NCBI RefSeq assembly: GCF_023611505.1
Contig: NZ_CP097843.1
Span: 1,426,001-1,490,000, forward strand
From: Streptococcus oralis
GTDB taxonomy: Bacteria; Bacillota; Bacilli; Lactobacillales; Streptococcaceae
DNA length: 64,000 nucleotides
Direction: 5' to 3'
Both the position numbers and the translations under genes were made by a program. Below, in pieces: positions 9,435 through 34,913 of this stretch. Below the pieces are notes generated by a model, which saw nothing but the letters and a program-made list of their open reading frames with translations, ran no database searches and had not been told where the DNA came from. Numbering within the stretch: position 1 is the first letter of the stretch; every line of letters begins with the position of its first letter.

Positions 9435-9463
9435 ATTATACCATATTTTCTGTGAAAGAAGAA
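9435..9463 (-). promoter_or_regulatory. apt promoter, target of the ICE insertion
   Basis: On the minus strand -10 TATAAT (9435-9440), 17-bp spacer, weak -35 TTCTTC (9458-9463). The element begins at 9481, with 17 bp (7 bp plus the 10-bp target duplication) between it and the -35 box. Confidence 0.7.
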
Positions 9464-9470
9464 GAGGAAA

Positions 9471-9480
9471 AGCACTATTG
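9471..9480. repeat. Left copy of the 10-bp target-site duplication
   Basis: AGCACTATTG immediately left of the element is repeated exactly at 34904-34913 immediately right of it. With a 10-bp duplication, the two element ends align base for base as inverted repeats. Confidence 0.85.
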
Positions 9481-9532
9481 GAGTGTGTCTGTTTTTGGGA
9501 GAAAATGAAAAATCACCAATAGAACGTAAATA
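9481..9532 (+). repeat. Left terminal inverted repeat of the ICE
   Basis: The left end begins GAGTGTGTCTG and has TTGGGAGAA at bases 15-23 and AGAACGT about 40 bases in. The right end read inward begins GTATGTGTCCT with TTGGGAGAA at the same position and AGAACGT two bases further in. Confidence 0.8.
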
Positions 9533-9570
9533 AAAGACCGAAACTTTCAACTTTTTCCTGTCCCAGTCTT
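9530..9570 (-). terminator. Possible attenuator in the outward transcript of the left end
   Basis: On the minus strand AAGACTG pairs with CGGTCTT (7 bp with one G-U) around a 23-nt loop and is followed by TTATTT. A transcript from the outward promoter at 9695-9722 would meet it about 120 nt after its start and before leaving the element. An alternative smaller fold uses the loop sequence. Confidence 0.4.
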
Positions 9571-9597
9571 GATTTATTGTTCTTTTGATGATACAAT
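9569..9597 (+). promoter_or_regulatory. Promoter of the left-end small RNA
   Basis: The plus strand has -35 TTGATT (9569-9574), an exact 17-bp spacer and -10 TACAAT (9592-9597). The only thing downstream before a strong terminator is the structured RNA at 9604-9680. Confidence 0.65.
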
Positions 9598-9603
9598 AGC
9601 TTT

Positions 9604-9680
9604 AAACTGATTGAACAAGTGTTGGTTGTTTAATCGGTGGGCGTTTGAGTGTTAGTAGCACTCAGCGCCTTTTGTTCGTG
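9604..9680 (+). ncRNA. Candidate antisense RNA with two hairpins
   Basis: Starting 7 bp after a good -10 box, this short unit folds into a 13-bp stem (ACTGATTGAACAA with TTGTTTAATCGGT, 9606-9638, all pairs when G-U is allowed). A second stem follows (GGCG..TGAGTG with CACTCA.CGCC, 9640-9669), then TTTTGTTCG and a run of T. That is the architecture of a counter-transcribed regulatory RNA: about 77 nt, no useful open frame, own promoter and intrinsic terminator. It is fully antisense to any transcript from the opposing promoter at 9695-9722. The proposed target is the leader of repA in the circular element; this is inference. Confidence 0.55.
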
Positions 9681-9694
9681 TTTTTTATAATTCC

Positions 9695-9722
9695 ATTATA
9701 CCACTTTGGGAGGGGAATGCAA
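9695..9722 (-). promoter_or_regulatory. Outward-facing extended -10 promoter with overlapping dyad
   Basis: On the minus strand -35 TTGCAT (9717-9722), a 16-bp spacer and TGG-TATAAT (9695-9700, extended -10). It lies 55 bp beyond the transposase stop and points out of the element. An interrupted palindrome (TTTGGGA...AATGC-AA-GCATT...TCCCAAA, about 9704-9734) covers the -35 and spacer and may be an operator. In the integrated state it reads toward apt; in the circle it reads across the junction toward the 53-codon gene and repA. Confidence 0.6.
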
Positions 9723-9779
9723 GCATTTTCCCAAACTTTTTTTCTAAAAGGCTTGACAAATCATGGTTTCATCTGTTTT

Positions 9780-11132
9780 TCAATCCCTTTCATCGGTAAG
9801 AGCTCCCCAATACTTCGGTTTTCGGTTTGAGAGATTGACCTGTGGTAGTGTATAATCTGATTTTTGAGTATGTTGAAAGTGACCAGGATAATCTTTTTCC
9901 TGGTCTTTTATTGTTTGGTAGGATTTCCTCCAATCTCCGAAAAAGAGGTCTCTCAATTCTCCTGTATGGTTTAAAAGAATGGTTTGGCTCATAGTATCAG
10001 CGCCTTTCTCACTCCAATACATACCTCTATTTTTCATTCGATACGTCACTTTTCGATGCTGAGATTCCATGATACCAATACCCTTGCTACTGAGTCCAAA
10101 GCTCTCAGGATGATCAGTATATTTAAAGTTTTTCAGAAGTTGTCTTCTGAAGCGTTGAAAAGACTCTAATTTTTTGTCTGATTTAATCAAAGATTCAGCC
10201 GTATCAAGTACCGTTTTTAGTAACCCCTTATCTCGGCTCTTGACCGCTTCAAAGGCTTGTTTGGTCAGCACTAAAGGAAAAGTACGTAAATTCTTTTTCA
10301 GGGCTTGATTCACGTGAAAAGCATCCCAAAAGTGCAAATGCTCTTTAGGCTTAAAAGCACTAACTAAGTCCTTAAAGTCCGTAGGAGAATAGCCTTTACC
10401 ACCATCAGAATTAGTCACAATGACCGTTTCGGGAGTAATTTCAAAATGCCTAGTCAACAAATCCATTAGTCTATCTTTGGCTTTATGATAGCGTGTAGAG
10501 ATAACTTCTATCTTGTCTTTTAAGATATTCCTCTTCCCCTTCTTGCTTCCAGTATGGACAACAAAATGACTTAACTCAATAGACTTCTTTTTCCTGTCAG
10601 GCATTGCCTGTTTGACCCAAACCCCATCACCTTCAATATAGACTTTCTTTGCTCTCACTTTGTCCTGGTTATCTTCAGACCAGTCTGAAGCTGATAAGGA
10701 GTCGTACTCCTCTTTTTCAGCTAGGAGTTCACCTGCCACGTCTAAAGCGTGCTGAACTGTATTCTTGGTGATATAGATTTCCTTTAACATTTCCATCACC
10801 GATACAACTTTACGATAGGGCATAAAATTAGCAAGCTTGGTCACCTGGTAAAGTAGCTCCTGAGAAAACCTCGATCTTGGTTCTAGTCCTAGCTTTTCAT
10901 CAACAGGGATTCGGATGGTGTCATCTTTCTTCCATCTGCTACGTGAAAAGGTCATTTCTCCAAAAGAAAAAATAACTGTCCGCTCTTTTTGATTGATTCT
11001 TTTGTACCCCTGCGCTCGCATACTAGGGGCAATGAATTTTTCATAGTTTTCAATCATCTTCAGAAAAGCCCGTTGATTATTTTGGTTCAACTGCCTTGAA
11101 AATTCTCTTTCGTCTAACACGGTTATATCCAT
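9780..11132 (-). CDS. ISLre2/UPF0236-family DDE transposase
   Basis: This 450-residue protein is expected to excise and insert the element. Numbered from the upstream GTG at 11141, the putative catalytic triad is D172 (YIEGDGVWVK), D246 (TNSDGGKGYS) and E359 (GIMESQHRK), as in the ISLre2 group, whose members are often annotated UPF0236. The preferred start is the ATG at 11132: GAGGTGA sits 5 bp upstream and overlaps the in-frame GTG. The gene lies at the left end, reading outward. TnGBS-family ICEs carry related transposases. An array of partition-type operator octamers lies upstream. Confidence 0.9.
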   Translation of the reverse strand: MDITVLDEREFSRQLNQNNQRAFLKMIENYEKFIAPSMRAQGYKRINQKERTVIFSFGEMTFSRSRWKKDDTIRIPVDEKLGLEPRSRFSQELLYQVTKLANFMPYRKVVSVMEMLKEIYITKNTVQHALDVAGELLAEKEEYDSLSASDWSEDNQDKVRAKKVYIEGDGVWVKQAMPDRKKKSIELSHFVVHTGSKKGKRNILKDKIEVISTRYHKAKDRLMDLLTRHFEITPETVIVTNSDGGKGYSPTDFKDLVSAFKPKEHLHFWDAFHVNQALKKNLRTFPLVLTKQAFEAVKSRDKGLLKTVLDTAESLIKSDKKLESFQRFRRQLLKNFKYTDHPESFGLSSKGIGIMESQHRKVTYRMKNRGMYWSEKGADTMSQTILLNHTGELRDLFFGDWRKSYQTIKDQEKDYPGHFQHTQKSDYTLPQVNLSNRKPKYWGALTDERD

Positions 11133-11161
11133 TTTTGTCACCTCAATCTTCGCTACCGCCT

Positions 11162-17013: not shown

Positions 17014-20000
17014 TTACAGGCTCATCTCGTTGTCGCTCTTCTGCTCTTTTTTTGGAGCATCTTTCGCCTGCTCTTTCTCTTTAGGTTCAACCTCTTTTTC
17101 TTTAGATTGGTTTTTCAAGCGATCAATTTTTTCTTGAAAGGCATCCTTGGTCAGTTCTTTAGTTTGATACTTTTCAAGAGTTTTATCAATTCTTGAAATC
17201 AAACTATCTGCTTCTTTTTGTACAATTTTAATTTGACCTTCTAGGTCAGATAGTCCGTCAGGGTCATCTGTCCATGTTGCCAAATAGCCAAAACTGTACT
17301 CACTTGTATCTAACCCATAATGACTAGCTACCACAAAAGCAACTGACTCAGCTTGTAATTCTGCGGTACTTCTTTTAAGAGGAGTTTCTTGTAATTTCTC
17401 CATATTGTGTAGGTCAGAATGTGCCATTTCATGAAAGATTGTTTTTAGTGTTTGTTGCTCGGACATCCCTTGCTTAATTACAATTTCATTGTTGGTTACG
17501 GAATAAAAACCGTTAGAGCCTTTGGTGTCTTTGCTGAAAGAAAGGGGAACACCATTAGCTTCAGATACCTCTTTAGCTGACTTGTAAAGATTGCCATAAT
17601 CTTCATAAGTCCCCTCAAGTTCATAGATTGGTTTGGGTAATTCTTTTCCATTTGTCTGTGAGACATCAAAGACTGGGACAAGTTTGAAAGACATAAATGT
17701 TTGTTCATTTCCATTCTCATCTAAGAGTGGTTCATTAGTTTTAGGGTCTCGTCTTTTTAGAGTTATAGGGGCAAAAATCCGTAATGACTTTTCTCCCTTA
17801 TTGACACTTCTCTCAAATTCATCCTTCCACTTTTTGAAGGATGCCACGTGAGAAGCTTCAGGGTTTTGCATTAAAATCAACTGAATATTTCTCGGTGAGT
17901 AATTGTGAAATTTACTCATTGTGGTCAAGTATTGTTTGTAAGTGTCAGACTGAAAATAGTCTTTAACGCCATCTTTCAAAAGTTGAGAAAGCCCCTTACT
18001 GTCTTTTGCCTGAATCAGTTCAGCAATGCTTTTTTGTGGTTCAGGTGAAGGTTGATTTTGATTATTTGGATGATTGCTGTCAATCGGGTTTGACCCATAA
18101 CTAACCTCTTCCTGGTCTGACTTTCCGTCACCGTCTGTGTCAGCATTAAAAGGACTTGTCCCTTGAGCTTTTTCAACTTCATCAGGAATACCATCACCAT
18201 CTGAATCACGTTCAAGCTCTTCTTTTCGTGCTTCAGCTTGTTTTTTCTCTTCGTCTTCTCTGAGAATTTGCTCAATGCGATTTCTCAAATTTGGTTCATT
18301 ATTGTCTGCCATAGCTAGACCTCCATTTTGTAAATTTGGTTCATCTTTAAAGGGTTCAAAATCTTTATTTTGTCGCAATATATCAAGCATTGCTTGTCCA
18401 TTATCTTTAACAAATTCAGGATTGATTGACATTGTTTTGATGCTGTCGTCTTTCTCAACAAAGACCCCTAATATCGTTTTTTCTTGATTTAAAGTATCCA
18501 GTTCAATGTTGAGCGTTCGGCTAGGCTTCAGCAATGTTGCAGGGAAGGTTGAGTTATCATCCGTCCGAAAAGCTAAAAGAATATCTTTATCGTCTGAACG
18601 AATAGCACTTGAAACATCTAACCGCCCCATCTTCTCAACGGAAGATAAATCATCAAAGACAAAAGAATCTGACTCAAAGATTTCAGGGAGCATAGGGAGT
18701 AATTTTGCCTTATCTCTAAAGCCAATCCCAACTGTTAAATTTGCAAAATCGCCTTTTCCTGAAGCTACGTCTTCAATGAATTGCTCTGATAAATTTTCAG
18801 CCCACTCATGATAAACAGGAGCAATCCCTGTCAAGTGCATCCAATGCCTTTTTTCAAAATCCACCTGAAGCATCTGAACGTCTTCTTTATCCTGGTAAAA
18901 ATACGTGACCTTACTATCAGCCAACTCATTAAGATACCAGTCAGCCGATTTTTGAAATTCTTCAGCGTAACGATTGAGATACCTCAAATCTTTATCAGTC
19001 GCATAATGATAGCCATTTCTAAGCCCAACACTTGACTCTTTTGACCTATCAATGTTAAAATATAATTGAACATTGGCAGGAAAATCAGGTTGAGTCTTTG
19101 ACTCTTCAGGCTGTGGTGCTGTCCTTGAAGGTTCGCCTTCTAAATAACCGGAATTGCGATTGATTAGTTCGCCCCCAATGTTATTAAGTGGCTCTTGACT
19201 TCGGTCAAGGGCTTTTTCTTTGCTCTCCTTCAGGTAATCATTCCAGTCCATCTTGTCCTGACTTTCCAATCTCGGGGGGAGATCTGGAGTCAATCCAATT
19301 TCTTTATTGGTCAACCGCTCAATAAAGGCGTGACCTGCTTCATCATTATCAACTGCAAGGGTAATTAAGTCCTGGTGCTTTCCATCCTTAAAAAAAGTGC
19401 TTAATTTAGCTGTTTTAGCGAGGAAGGAAGATTTTTTCTCCTGGTCAACCTCATCATCAAGTTCACCAACTTCAGACAAGAGTTCTGCCACGTGACGACT
19501 CACCGTTGATTCTTTTAAGCCATCCATCGCAACCAGGCGGACATCTTCAAGACTATCCTTGTGAAGCTCATAATAGCTCATCAAATCAATAGGAGCTTCC
19601 GCAAAGACTAATCGTTTAGGTGTTCCAATATCAACGTGCATTCCCGTCATACCATCAGAAGCCCTCATAATCTGTTTTAAGCGCCCTCTCTCGTAAAGGT
19701 CATGATTTTCCTTAATACCTTGAAGAGAAGCGCCTATAACCTCTCCTTGGTTGTCTAAACTCTTGAAAACAATGACAGGTTCATAGTAGTCCCCTGTCTT
19801 TTTAGTTGCTTGTGATAAGACGTTTTTTTCTACGAAAAAATCGATCGTCTCATCAGACAAGCCCCTGACATCCTTCAGATATTCCCTGGCTTCTATGAAC
19901 TTAGTTTCATAAGGCTCAAGGTAATAGCTGAAGGGTTCTTTTTCAGGAACGTTGGTCACATCGACCACGTCAAAACTACCTTCTTCCAAGAAGTGTTTTG

Positions 20001-20238
20001 CTTGCTTAAAAGAAAGCTTCTCCCCTGTCAATTCTTCCTGAACGACTTGAACCATTTTAATCACATCACCGCCATTGCTACGGGCAAACCAATTGAAATA
20101 GTTTTCCCTAACATTGATAGTGAAAGAGTCATGTTCTTCCCAAGTGTAAGTATAGCTTCCTGTTCGCTGTAAACTCATGCCCAGGCTTTCTGCCACTTTT
20201 AGAATTGACAGGGCTTTGAGTTCTTCAATACTCGCCAT
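17014..20238 (-). CDS. LtrC-like primase/ArdC multidomain protein
   Basis: A 1074-residue DNA-processing protein. Residues 1-110 resemble a DUF3991-like primase N-terminus. Residues about 150-310 contain a TOPRIM-like core (VFAEAPIDLMSYYEL and AVDNDEAGHAF). About 675-720 hold two thrombospondin type-3 repeats (DSDGDGIPDEVEKAQG, DTDGDGKSDQEE), predicted to bind calcium. About 740-1000 form an ArdC-like single-strand DNA-binding domain followed by a zinc-peptidase motif HEMAHSDLH (about 935). The C-terminus is a charged coiled coil. It probably primes or protects incoming single-stranded DNA. Its start overlaps the upstream 119-codon gene by 14 bp. Confidence 0.82.
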   Translation of the reverse strand: MASIEELKALSILKVAESLGMSLQRTGSYTYTWEEHDSFTINVRENYFNWFARSNGGDVIKMVQVVQEELTGEKLSFKQAKHFLEEGSFDVVDVTNVPEKEPFSYYLEPYETKFIEAREYLKDVRGLSDETIDFFVEKNVLSQATKKTGDYYEPVIVFKSLDNQGEVIGASLQGIKENHDLYERGRLKQIMRASDGMTGMHVDIGTPKRLVFAEAPIDLMSYYELHKDSLEDVRLVAMDGLKESTVSRHVAELLSEVGELDDEVDQEKKSSFLAKTAKLSTFFKDGKHQDLITLAVDNDEAGHAFIERLTNKEIGLTPDLPPRLESQDKMDWNDYLKESKEKALDRSQEPLNNIGGELINRNSGYLEGEPSRTAPQPEESKTQPDFPANVQLYFNIDRSKESSVGLRNGYHYATDKDLRYLNRYAEEFQKSADWYLNELADSKVTYFYQDKEDVQMLQVDFEKRHWMHLTGIAPVYHEWAENLSEQFIEDVASGKGDFANLTVGIGFRDKAKLLPMLPEIFESDSFVFDDLSSVEKMGRLDVSSAIRSDDKDILLAFRTDDNSTFPATLLKPSRTLNIELDTLNQEKTILGVFVEKDDSIKTMSINPEFVKDNGQAMLDILRQNKDFEPFKDEPNLQNGGLAMADNNEPNLRNRIEQILREDEEKKQAEARKEELERDSDGDGIPDEVEKAQGTSPFNADTDGDGKSDQEEVSYGSNPIDSNHPNNQNQPSPEPQKSIAELIQAKDSKGLSQLLKDGVKDYFQSDTYKQYLTTMSKFHNYSPRNIQLILMQNPEASHVASFKKWKDEFERSVNKGEKSLRIFAPITLKRRDPKTNEPLLDENGNEQTFMSFKLVPVFDVSQTNGKELPKPIYELEGTYEDYGNLYKSAKEVSEANGVPLSFSKDTKGSNGFYSVTNNEIVIKQGMSEQQTLKTIFHEMAHSDLHNMEKLQETPLKRSTAELQAESVAFVVASHYGLDTSEYSFGYLATWTDDPDGLSDLEGQIKIVQKEADSLISRIDKTLEKYQTKELTKDAFQEKIDRLKNQSKEKEVEPKEKEQAKDAPKKEQKSDNEMSL

Positions 20239-32484: not shown

Positions 32485-32709
32485 TTAGCTGATAGCTTGA
32501 AGCGCTGCAATAATGGCTTGGCAGACTGCCGCCCCGATAACACCGATAGCGCCACCATTTATCATGGCATTTGCCCCTTTTTCCTGGCGCATAGAGTCAT
32601 TGTTGTTACGACCCCCAAAGAAGTCAATAATTCCTGCAAGAACCCATACAAGTCCTGTAATACCAACGACTGCTTGAACAATTTGAAAAACTTTAACTGC
32701 TGTATCCAT
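32485..32709 (-). CDS. VirB2/PrgF-like small membrane protein
   Basis: A 74-residue protein with two membrane helices (VVGITGLVWVLAGIIDFF and AIGVIGAAVCQAIIAALQAI) joined by a polar loop (GGRNNNDSMRQEKGAN). Size, topology and position before the VirB6-like gene fit the VirB2-type pilin-like subunit of Gram-positive systems. No signal-peptidase site is obvious. Confidence 0.65.
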   Translation of the reverse strand: MDTAVKVFQIVQAVVGITGLVWVLAGIIDFFGGRNNNDSMRQEKGANAMINGGAIGVIGAAVCQAIIAALQAIS

Positions 32710-33646: not shown

Positions 33647-33814
33647 TTAATCAGCATAGAAGAGGCCATAGCCAGCTACTAACATACACAAGCTCATAAG
33701 TTGCTGGAAACCAGGAAAATCCGAAAGGAAAATTTTGGGCATAAAGTATGATACGCAAAAAATACAAGTAATAATCAGCAAATTTAGAGCAATTTTCTTT
33801 ACTAACTTTTTCAT
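33647..33814 (-). CDS. Small two-helix membrane protein coupled to repA
   Basis: This is a 55-codon gene. Its ATG overlaps the repA stop (TGATG) and it has an AGGGGTAA site within the end of repA. It encodes MKKLVKKIALNLLIITCIFC..., a basic start with two hydrophobic segments (about 8-24 and 38-54). The overlap with repA argues that it is real and co-expressed. I recognise no family. A role in membrane tethering, copy control or toxicity cannot be judged from sequence. Confidence 0.6.
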   Translation of the reverse strand: MKKLVKKIALNLLIITCIFCVSYFMPKIFLSDFPGFQQLMSLCMLVAGYGLFYAD

Positions 33815-34641
33815 CAGCTTACCCCTTTATTTTGTTGCTTTCTGATCCTCTGACTCCATTCAGCCATCACGCCGTTAAATACGTATTCAGCAACCATTTC
33901 AGACGAGCGGGCAAACCTCATATTCTCTAAAGCGTATTGATAGCGGTCATCAAAATGTATCATCGCATAATCTGCGGTAGCCTGTGAGAAGTTTTCTTTT
34001 AGTAACTGGTCATGAACCAAGTTCCAAATATAGTCTCGGTCGTACTTAGTCGCCTTATCAACTTTTCGGGAAAGATTGACTCTATTTTTTCCTTCAGAAT
34101 TTTGAGGGGCTTTCTCTTCTTCCTCCTCTAAACTAAAATCAGTATCACTAAACTCAGGCTCACTAGAATCAGTATCATTAGGTTCTGAAATTCCGAAGTC
34201 TTGAATTCTGTTTTCCAGAGTTCCAGAATTCGGAATTTCAGAATTCTGGAAGTCGGAATTTCCGAATTCCGCTGGTATCAAGGGTTTAGCCACATTTTCA
34301 ACCTTTAAAGAACCAAGATAAATCAAATTTGGTTTGTTTAAACCTTGGCGAACTTCTTCGAGTAGGTCATATTTTTTCAGCTCTTTTTTCAGCTTAATAA
34401 CCTTATCTTTTCCGTAACCTAACATCTCTCCAATTTCTTCAACGGTAAAGATGAAATAGATATTTCCATCAGCATCAATCCAGTTGTTTTTTACTGATAA
34501 CTCAAATCTATCCTTTAGGATGGCATAAAGCAATTTAGATTCAGCAGACATCTTTTTATAGAGTTCAGACTCAAAAAGTAACTTTGGTACACGGAAGAAT
34601 CTTTCTCCGTTATTAACCTGTGCAAGTGAGATTCTTTCCAT
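33814..34641 (-). CDS. repA: RepA_N-family replication initiator
   Basis: A 275-residue theta-replication initiator. The N-terminal about 115 residues match the RepA_N domain (RFFRVPKLLFESELYKKMSAES..LLYAILKDR and a winged-helix EEIGEMLGYGKDKVIKLKKEL). A low-complexity middle (123-180) follows, then a short host-specific-type C-terminus (about 190-275). In RepA_N plasmids the origin lies inside the rep gene in this middle part, and GAATTC-centred dyads occur there. GGAGG 7 bp upstream sets the start. A 53-codon gene precedes it by 2 bp. No convincing promoter lies between this cluster and the end of the element. Confidence 0.9.
   Translation of the reverse strand: MERISLAQVNNGERFFRVPKLLFESELYKKMSAESKLLYAILKDRFELSVKNNWIDADGNIYFIFTVEEIGEMLGYGKDKVIKLKKELKKYDLLEEVRQGLNKPNLIYLGSLKVENVAKPLIPAEFGNSDFQNSEIPNSGTLENRIQDFGISEPNDTDSSEPEFSDTDFSLEEEEEKAPQNSEGKNRVNLSRKVDKATKYDRDYIWNLVHDQLLKENFSQATADYAMIHFDDRYQYALENMRFARSSEMVAEYVFNGVMAEWSQRIRKQQNKGVS
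34186..34272. other. Putative replication origin inside repA
   Basis: Four GAATTC hexamers in about 65 bp are embedded in overlapping dyads, for example TTCCAGAATTC...GAATTCTGGAA (34221-34250) and CGGAATT-TC-CGAATTCCG (34254-34271). They lie in the linker-coding part of repA, exactly where RepA_N plasmids have their iteron origins. Confidence 0.55.
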
Positions 34642-34643
34642 AC

Positions 34644-34805
34644 CTAAACCTCCCTAAATCTAAGATCACCTTTTGAATTAAAAGCAATCAATCCAAAAGA
34701 TTCTAGTTCTTTAATGTTGTCTATTGATTCTTGACGGGTTATCCCTGTCTGTTTCATCAAGAATGAAATAATCAATTCACGTGTTTCTTTTTCTTTTGAT
34801 ATCAT
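34644..34805 (-). CDS. Small protein encoded immediately upstream of repA
   Basis: A 53-residue protein, MISKEKETRELIISFLMKQ..., from the ATG at 34805, which has AGGAGG upstream; the longer frame to 34856 would run through the terminator hairpin. Its LIISFLMKQTGITRQESIDNIKELESFGLI stretch looks like a small winged-helix or helix-turn-helix unit. It ends 2 bp before repA and contains the repA ribosome binding site, so it may control repA translation or be a small regulator. Confidence 0.6.
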   Translation of the reverse strand: MISKEKETRELIISFLMKQTGITRQESIDNIKELESFGLIAFNSKGDLRFREV

Positions 34806-34830
34806 TTGTGACCTCCTGAGATTAAATTGA

Positions 34831-34862
34831 GAAAAACAAAAGAGAACGCTATTCACGTTCTC
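34831..34862 (-). terminator. Terminator/attenuator at the right end of the ICE
   Basis: On the minus strand a perfect 7-bp stem GAGAACG-TGAATAG-CGTTCTC is followed by TTTTGTTTTTC. It lies 26 bp upstream of the 53-codon gene. It blocks readthrough from rplA into repA in the integrated state. In the circle it would lie in the leader of any transcript entering from the left end. Confidence 0.75.
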
Positions 34863-34903
34863 TCAATGTTATTTATTCAATTCTCCCAATTTAGGACACA
34901 TAC
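34852..34903 (-). repeat. Right terminal inverted repeat of the ICE
   Basis: Read inward it begins GTATGTGTCCTAAATTGGGA and shares TGTGTC, TTGGGAGAA and AGAACGTGAATA-like blocks with the left end at matching spacing. It overlaps one arm of the terminator hairpin. Confidence 0.8.
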
Positions 34904-34913
34904 AGCACTATTG
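34904..34913. repeat. Right copy of the 10-bp target-site duplication
   Basis: AGCACTATTG, identical to 9471-9480, followed by the ordinary rplA downstream sequence. Confidence 0.85.

Follow-up and report, generated by a model that had tools for sequence, protein, structure and literature searches.

A candidate antisense-controlled attenuator-antiterminator leader split between the two ends of a streptococcal ICE

We propose, with a probability of roughly three in four, that the replication-transfer operon of a TnGBS-type ICE of Streptococcus oralis is controlled by an attenuator-antiterminator that the transposon ends divide in two and excision puts back together. The computed evidence consists of the conserved anatomy of a noncoding leader, the strand-specific structure of its hairpins and the covarying complementarity of the two ends of the element. 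The promoters, antisense RNA hairpins, attenuator and right-end hairpin reported in a preliminary description of this DNA are all present in the sequence, with the attenuator (T1) at 9534-9571 and the right-end hairpin (T2) at 34840-34864.

The window (the whole 64,000-nt stretch that was analysed) holds at 9481-34903 what is, by its sequence, a TnGBS-type ICE. Its left end lies at 9481, as given by a second copy with identical ends in the same genome (C1:1818659 and C1:1844081), by target duplications (AGCACTATTG, 10 bp, in the window and GCAGCCTCT, 9 bp, on both sides of the second copy) and by an empty site between apt and rplA in the relative G019. This places the features reported earlier inside the element. 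The idea that the outward promoter is the host promoter of apt was rejected, as comparison with relatives and with the second copy places the end at 9481; apt is also provided, on the host side, with a promoter-like sequence of its own. The names IRr (transposase side) and IRl (repA side) follow PMC3942029. The features are:

9471-9480, no strand: target-site duplication AGCACTATTG, left copy, same at 34904-34913
9481-9504, minus strand: IRr, terminal inverted repeat on the transposase side, boundary from the second identical copy and the alignment
9505-9533, minus strand: aT2, proposed antiterminator strand, complementary to 34850-34880, with a duplex of -18.9 kcal/mol with its own partner
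9534-9571, minus strand: T1, predicted attenuator/terminator of the outward transcript, with 107 G.U and 0 A.C on the outward strand over 51 distinct regions
9569-9597, plus strand: putative antisense promoter, TTGATT-17-TACAAT with TG before the -10, from the scan; loose pattern in 85 of 86 leaders, 37.7 in shuffled sequences
9604-9681, plus strand: antisense RNA of about 77 nt with predicted ends, the start from the promoter and the end from the terminator hairpin and T-run
9606-9638, plus strand: HII, predicted 13-bp 5' hairpin of the antisense RNA, with 58 G.U and 1 A.C on the antisense strand
9640-9669, plus strand: HI, predicted terminator hairpin of the antisense RNA, with 39 G.U and 2 A.C on the antisense strand
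9695-9722, minus strand: pR, putative outward promoter, TTGCAT-16-TATAAT with TGG; pattern in 86 of 86 leaders, 2.6 in shuffled sequences
9780-11141, minus strand: DDE transposase of the UPF0236/ISLre2 type (Pfam PF06782, E 3e-22)
33814-34641, minus strand: repA, RepA_N initiator (Pfam PF06970, E 9.4e-33)
34644-34805, minus strand: 53-codon gene preceding repA, from an ATG within the ORF 34644-34856, with tblastn matches in several relatives
34840-34864, minus strand: T2, predicted terminator just inside IRl and facing repA, from the scan, with a U-run, 8 G.U and 0 A.C
34881-34903, minus strand: IRl, terminal inverted repeat on the repA side, from end comparison and target duplications
34904-34913, no strand: target-site duplication, right copy, matching the left copy

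The element joins a UPF0236/ISLre2-type transposase to RepA_N, ParA and a conjugation module (profile or homology matches to ParA-like, relaxase and TraG-like proteins), carries its main genes from repA to the transposase on one strand (minus), and is bounded by imperfect terminal repeats and a short target duplication. Among the 39 element pairs described below, this duplication measures 8 bp in two, 9 bp in 28 and 10 bp in nine. The available text of PMC3942029 gives 8-9 bp for TnGBS and circles in which the repeats lie 6-10 bp apart; as described there and in the available text of PMC4701971, TnGBS and p-MULT3 transposons combine a transposase, terminal repeats, a circle and RepA_N replication, with oriented insertion upstream of sigmaA promoters. 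For TnGBS-type elements, a distance of about 15-17 bp is expected between the transposase-side end and the sigmaA promoter downstream of it; here the apt -10 lies at 9435-9440, and a 17-nt spacer puts its -35, weak and recognised by eye, at 9458-9463, 17 bp from 9481.

Within the element, the large protein encoded at 17014-20238 combines PBECR4, ArdC N-terminal and Toprim-like domains. Outside it, window 40873-41012 matches the streptococcal sRNA SpF22 (Rfam RF02431). A third transposase copy, of another lineage, lies in the same genome (G000:C1:1978931-1980142, L163) with an intact-looking leader; no right end was found within the 40 kb examined, and this copy may be a remnant, a larger element or one with other end sequences.

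Relatives of the window's transposase occur in 74 of 247 genomes of the genus. Downstream of related transposases, 86 of 90 distinct tails align with window 9530-9735, counting as a leader at least 100 aligned model columns, and the other four gave no long leader match; a recognisable IRr was missing from 6 of the 90. The 86 tails contain some places fetched twice, and the safer numbers are the 58 representatives left at a 92% identity cut, the 17 junction clusters and the 19 leader clusters. Most of the transposases listed are only about 42-50% identical to the window's, so the noncoding leader appears strikingly conserved. Among named loci, the leader is present in 68 of 79 and missing from 11, some of them cut by contig ends (five in Streptococcus, two in Enterococcus, and one each in a Bacillota MAG, a Lactobacillaceae MAG, Pilibacter and Granulicatella). 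Outside Streptococcus it was found at two Lactococcus loci, with a weak match in E. cecorum.

Read outward, the leader holds pR (TTGCAT at 9722-9717, 16 nt, TATAAT at 9700-9695, with TGG in front), the complements of HI and HII, the antisense promoter on the other strand, T1, a variable segment and IRr. A promoter scan of the window region returned one site against 0.8 in shuffled sequences, so that the promoters alone do not stand above chance. The same scan misses pR, whose TTGCAT is a weak -35, and the terminator scan misses T1, whose loop is over its limit. We take the leader features as real because they are conserved in relatives, and not from the scan. At the score cut-off, the stem of HI was recovered in 45 of 46 regions, that of HII in 53 of 54 and that of T1 in 47 of 51 (3, 13 and 6 in shuffled sequences, respectively). 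RNAalifold applied to the outward alignment predicted T1, with changes on both sides in 6 of 10 pairs, and no structure besides it; an Rfam search of the leader gave weak, implausible matches only. In L148, L157 and L142 the U-run of T1 is not recognisable; this lineage keeps pR and the antisense hairpins, and its aT2 overlaps the position of T1.

Which strand folds can be read from the wobble pairs. A G.U pair is stable only on the RNA strand, and at such sites the opposite strand reads A.C. We counted both in the best stems, picked by a scoring blind to this difference. The G.U:A.C ratio on the outward strand is 2:39 for HI (46 distinct sequences), 1:58 for HII (54), 107:0 for T1 (51) and 8:0 for T2 (32). 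Summed on the antisense strand, HI and HII hold 97 G.U against 3 A.C. Since G.U is kept on that strand, the best reading assigns these two hairpins to a plus-strand antisense RNA, and T1 and T2 to the outward transcript. The two hairpins of the preliminary description therefore stand, but not as structures of the outward transcript, and their stems are kept among related ICEs, where that description had proposed to look for covariation. The HII loops vary widely over kept stems (alignment A1, columns 72-104), as one would expect of loops that determine antisense specificity or compatibility groups.

The 3' arm of HII, read on the outward strand, is a proposed anti-attenuator (aT1) that can pair with the 5' arm of T1. 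Over 19 clusters, pairing with the own partner averages -14.3 kcal/mol against -12.4 kcal/mol with others, and 0 of 20,000 permutations were as good; here and below, clusters are kin by descent, so that a permutation count is no strict probability, and duplex and fold energies are model values that give equilibrium estimates. The strand asymmetry of aT1-T1 is unclear (G.U:A.C 21:13 for own and 300:257 for non-own pairs). An antisense RNA would cover the aT1 segment and promote termination at T1, and antisense-driven termination has precedents in the available accounts of pCF10 (PMC6540685) and pIP501 (PMC5703833). In a large lineage comprising L158, L118 and their relatives, ACTCGGT comes right after T1, and its complement lies on that strand in the 5' arm of HII; the two may form a third alternative pairing.

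The stretch from T1 to the end of the element, aT2, is complementary to T2 inside the opposite end, about 25 kb away. Left and right ends were matched by their target duplications, genome membership being taken from the locus tables; of 46 matches, seven were cross-genome and were dropped, leaving 39 same-genome elements (10 pairs span different contigs of draft genomes and two rest on 8 bp only; in an earlier step, 6 of 24 candidate pairs gave no usable duplication). We compared the 45 nt inside IRr with the stretch from IRl to the T2 loop. In 17 clusters the own aT2-T2 duplex averages -23.5 kcal/mol against -12.0 kcal/mol with other partners, with 0 of 20,000 permutations as good, and the own partner ranks first in eight, second in five and third in four; the window's own duplex (-18.9 kcal/mol) ranks third of 17. 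A strict set, limited to the 15 clusters whose two ends share a contig and whose duplications measure 9-10 bp, gives -23.8 against -12.3 kcal/mol, again 0 of 20,000 permutations, and ranks from 1 to 5, the own partner of L097 being fifth of 15. Between L097 and L099, change is seen in aT2 and in both arms of T2, and in a sister trio one site with its partners at opposite ends reads G-C (L107), G.U (L108) and A-U (L106). Pairing of aT2 with T2 needs one RNA running across both ends, that is, an RNA as it would be made in the circle.

The same complementarity might be a feature of the DNA, with extended inverted repeats serving as transposase sites or maintained by gene conversion and no RNA pairing across the junction. 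The terminal 23-24 bases are indeed inverted repeats, and aT2 and T2 lie directly inside them; yet the match extends into the fast-changing arm of T2 and varies together with it. Own aT2-T2 pairs also hold 40 G.U to 7 A.C against 483:257 in non-own pairs (p 0.002; strict set 39:5 against 401:192, p 0.001), whereas the terminal repeats show no such preference (13:11). G.U already makes up 65% of transitions in non-own pairs as against 85% in own pairs, so that composition explains part of the surplus, but the own pairs go beyond it. T2, moreover, is a predicted terminator hairpin in all 39 element pairs. We consider a purely DNA-level origin improbable.

The preferred reading, pairing in a cross-junction RNA, was also followed through fold energies. 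When T2 is given the aT2 of its own element, the energies favour antitermination in 29 of 39 pairs and in 13 of 17 representatives (L095, L100, L101 and L127 being the four in which they do not). A foreign aT2 favours antitermination in 19 of 272 combinations and a shuffled one in 1 of 170, while without the IRr side antitermination wins in 0 of 39 and T2 in 39 of 39. As aT2 is made before T2, it would gain a further advantage from the order of synthesis. Two attenuator-like hairpins had been described earlier at 9530-9570 and 34831-34862; the first holds as T1, but the second is better seen as a terminator that insulates, with its antiterminator at the other end of the element.

Joined ends occur in a natural record. 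The 41,625-bp circular plasmid p1_CUN_G3 of Streptococcus ruminicola (L365, NZ_CP046625.1) has the order ParA, Fic, ISLre2-family transposase, leader, IRr, 3 nt, IRl, T2, small gene, repA, with 3 bases between the repeats against the published 6-10. Together with the complementarity and covariation between ends, this circle strongly supports the earlier proposal that an antisense-controlled leader would be assembled only after excision. Typed as non-mobilizable, p1_CUN_G3 resembles the excised circle of a TnGBS-type ICE. A right-end match beside a left end in G012 was considered as a further natural junction and rejected, as it is a promoter-like stretch before a neighbouring gene, which we take by eye to be galE-like.

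The 25,027-bp plasmid pSUT-380-1 of S. parasuis (L285, AP024278.1) has an ICE-like conjugation backbone in common with the window's element (relaxase 92% and ParA 78% identical). Its pR, HI, HII, T1, aT2 and T2, as recognised by eye, are unsplit: aT2 and T2 are not parted by terminal repeats, and the plasmid gave no match to the transposase of the window. That both strands are retained without such repeats or a transposase match is a further argument against a DNA-level origin. Transfer-gene homologues lie downstream of the leader and a Rep3-like gene upstream, with no repA there. A small gene with homology to window 32485-32709 is also present on this plasmid, in three tandem copies. The unsplit arrangement points to an origin of the ICE leader in a plasmid, as the leader of a transfer operon that transposon ends severed between aT2 and T2; evolution the other way, from ICE leader to plasmid leader, is possible.

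These relatives bear on two further explanations. T1 and T2 could be mere insulators, the antisense RNA incidental, and repA and the transfer genes expressed from promoters deeper inside. Both terminators are at the ends and face flanking DNA, and the extra genes that some relatives carry between IRl and repA could hold internal promoters. A promoter inside the right end, which the preliminary description had named as evidence against its own reading, was looked for in the first 170 nt of IRl; the pattern occurs in 0 of 39 elements, a weak result given that shuffled sequences yield only 2.0, and in the window the 53-codon gene starts about 34 nt beyond the T2 hairpin. Insulation, however, leaves the complementarity of aT1 and aT2 and the conserved pR unexplained, and would have to account for an unsplit leader on a plasmid, where no flanking chromosome exists. 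We give it little credence.

The leader could also exert antisense copy-number control over repA alone, following the pIP501 pattern put forward in the preliminary description. In both the window and p1_CUN_G3, repA is the first sizeable gene after T2, and antisense control of a RepA_N initiator is known for pSK41, according to the available text of PMC5703833. By sequence, the layout of antisense attenuation holds, but repA as sole target sits poorly with pSUT-380-1, where the Rep gene is upstream of the leader and transfer-gene homologues are downstream, and with the shared strand of the main genes from repA to the transposase; we think it unlikely. Because the unsplit leader of pSUT-380-1 fronts transfer-gene homologues without repA there, the target is probably the whole replication-transfer operon.

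We infer transcription, termination, antitermination and antisense action from these patterns. In the integrated element, most pR transcripts would end at T1; the earlier suggestion that the integrated promoter reads into apt needs correcting on this point, as T1 stands between the two. Transcription from the host flank would end at T2, whose partner strand is absent, leaving the operon off. Excision would join IRr to IRl, and a pR transcript that passes T1 would carry aT2 over the junction, where it would capture the 5' arm of T2 before T2 closes. RNA polymerase would then enter the 53-codon gene and repA and probably continue into the conjugation genes. The convergent antisense RNA would bind the 5' leader, block aT1-T1 pairing and favour termination at T1, as a dose-dependent restraint.

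More tentatively, the leader may act as a protein-free sensor of DNA topology and dose: its halves would pair only after excision, and antisense RNA produced constantly by integrated copies would act in trans on excised or incoming circles with a matching hairpin. If true, such a sensor would license replication and transfer and would confer an incompatibility-like immunity between related ICEs.

Parts of this logic are known from other elements, here as given in the available texts. At Porf7-canT of Tn916, an end terminator shields the integrated element, and an antiterminator from the other end, upstream of it only in the circle, couples the transfer genes to excision (PMC11658703). The window matches this by sequence, T2 and aT2 being brought together upstream on circularisation. 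canT, however, is processive, affects unrelated terminators and has RNA polymerase as its suspected target (PMC11658703), whereas aT2 would be a local, base-paired antiterminator that co-varies with its single terminator, in another family (DDE transposase) and behind an antisense-controlled attenuator. In the prgQ/Anti-Q region of pCF10, convergent promoters are found and an antisense RNA induces a terminator in the leader of the conjugation operon (PMC6540685). Convergent promoters, a structured antisense RNA, T1 and a covarying aT1 are matched in the window by sequence; its leader is, unlike that of pCF10, cut by transposon ends. The pCF10 leader is plasmid-borne and unsplit, with PrgX and peptide control added. 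No gene for a PrgX-type repressor was seen on the antisense transcript, the 300 nt from transposase to end holding just small ORFs, judged by length.

Short antisense RNAs to rep leaders are described for pIP501, pT181 and pSK41, with attenuation in the first two and a RepA_N initiator in pSK41; the available text of PMC5703833 describes no second, junction-dependent terminator and states that similar control is apparently absent from RepA_N plasmids of non-staphylococcal genera. The RepR of pIP501 (Inc18) is of the PriCT_1 type (PMC5703833), which the RepA_N initiator of the window is not. Q/Anti-Q of pCF10 and canT of Tn916 are closer models than pIP501. In ICEKp1, circularisation places a gene at one end under a promoter at the other, and stem-loops attenuate when the element is integrated, but the gene controlled is the integrase (int), and the available text mentions no antisense RNA or cross-junction antiterminator (PMC13023037). 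For TnGBS and p-MULT3, no leader RNA is described in the available texts (PMC3942029, PMC4701971), and the word "antisense" is absent from that of PMC3942029. Our literature search, whose scope did not include the main 2013 TnGBS work of Guerillot et al., returned neither a base-paired antiterminator divided between the ends of an ICE nor an antisense RNA for TnGBS elements. The logic is thus known from canT and Anti-Q, and we found no report of its split, base-paired form in the literature searched.

How DDE-transposase ICEs of streptococci are silenced in the chromosome and switched on at excision is undescribed in the literature covered, and a leader halved by transposon ends would be a simple physical answer to excision-coupled switching. 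The covariation of sites that lie about 25 kb apart in the chromosome provides evolutionary evidence of an RNA selected in the joined state. More generally, these leaders suggest that the placement of transposon ends can turn a plasmid control region into an excision sensor.
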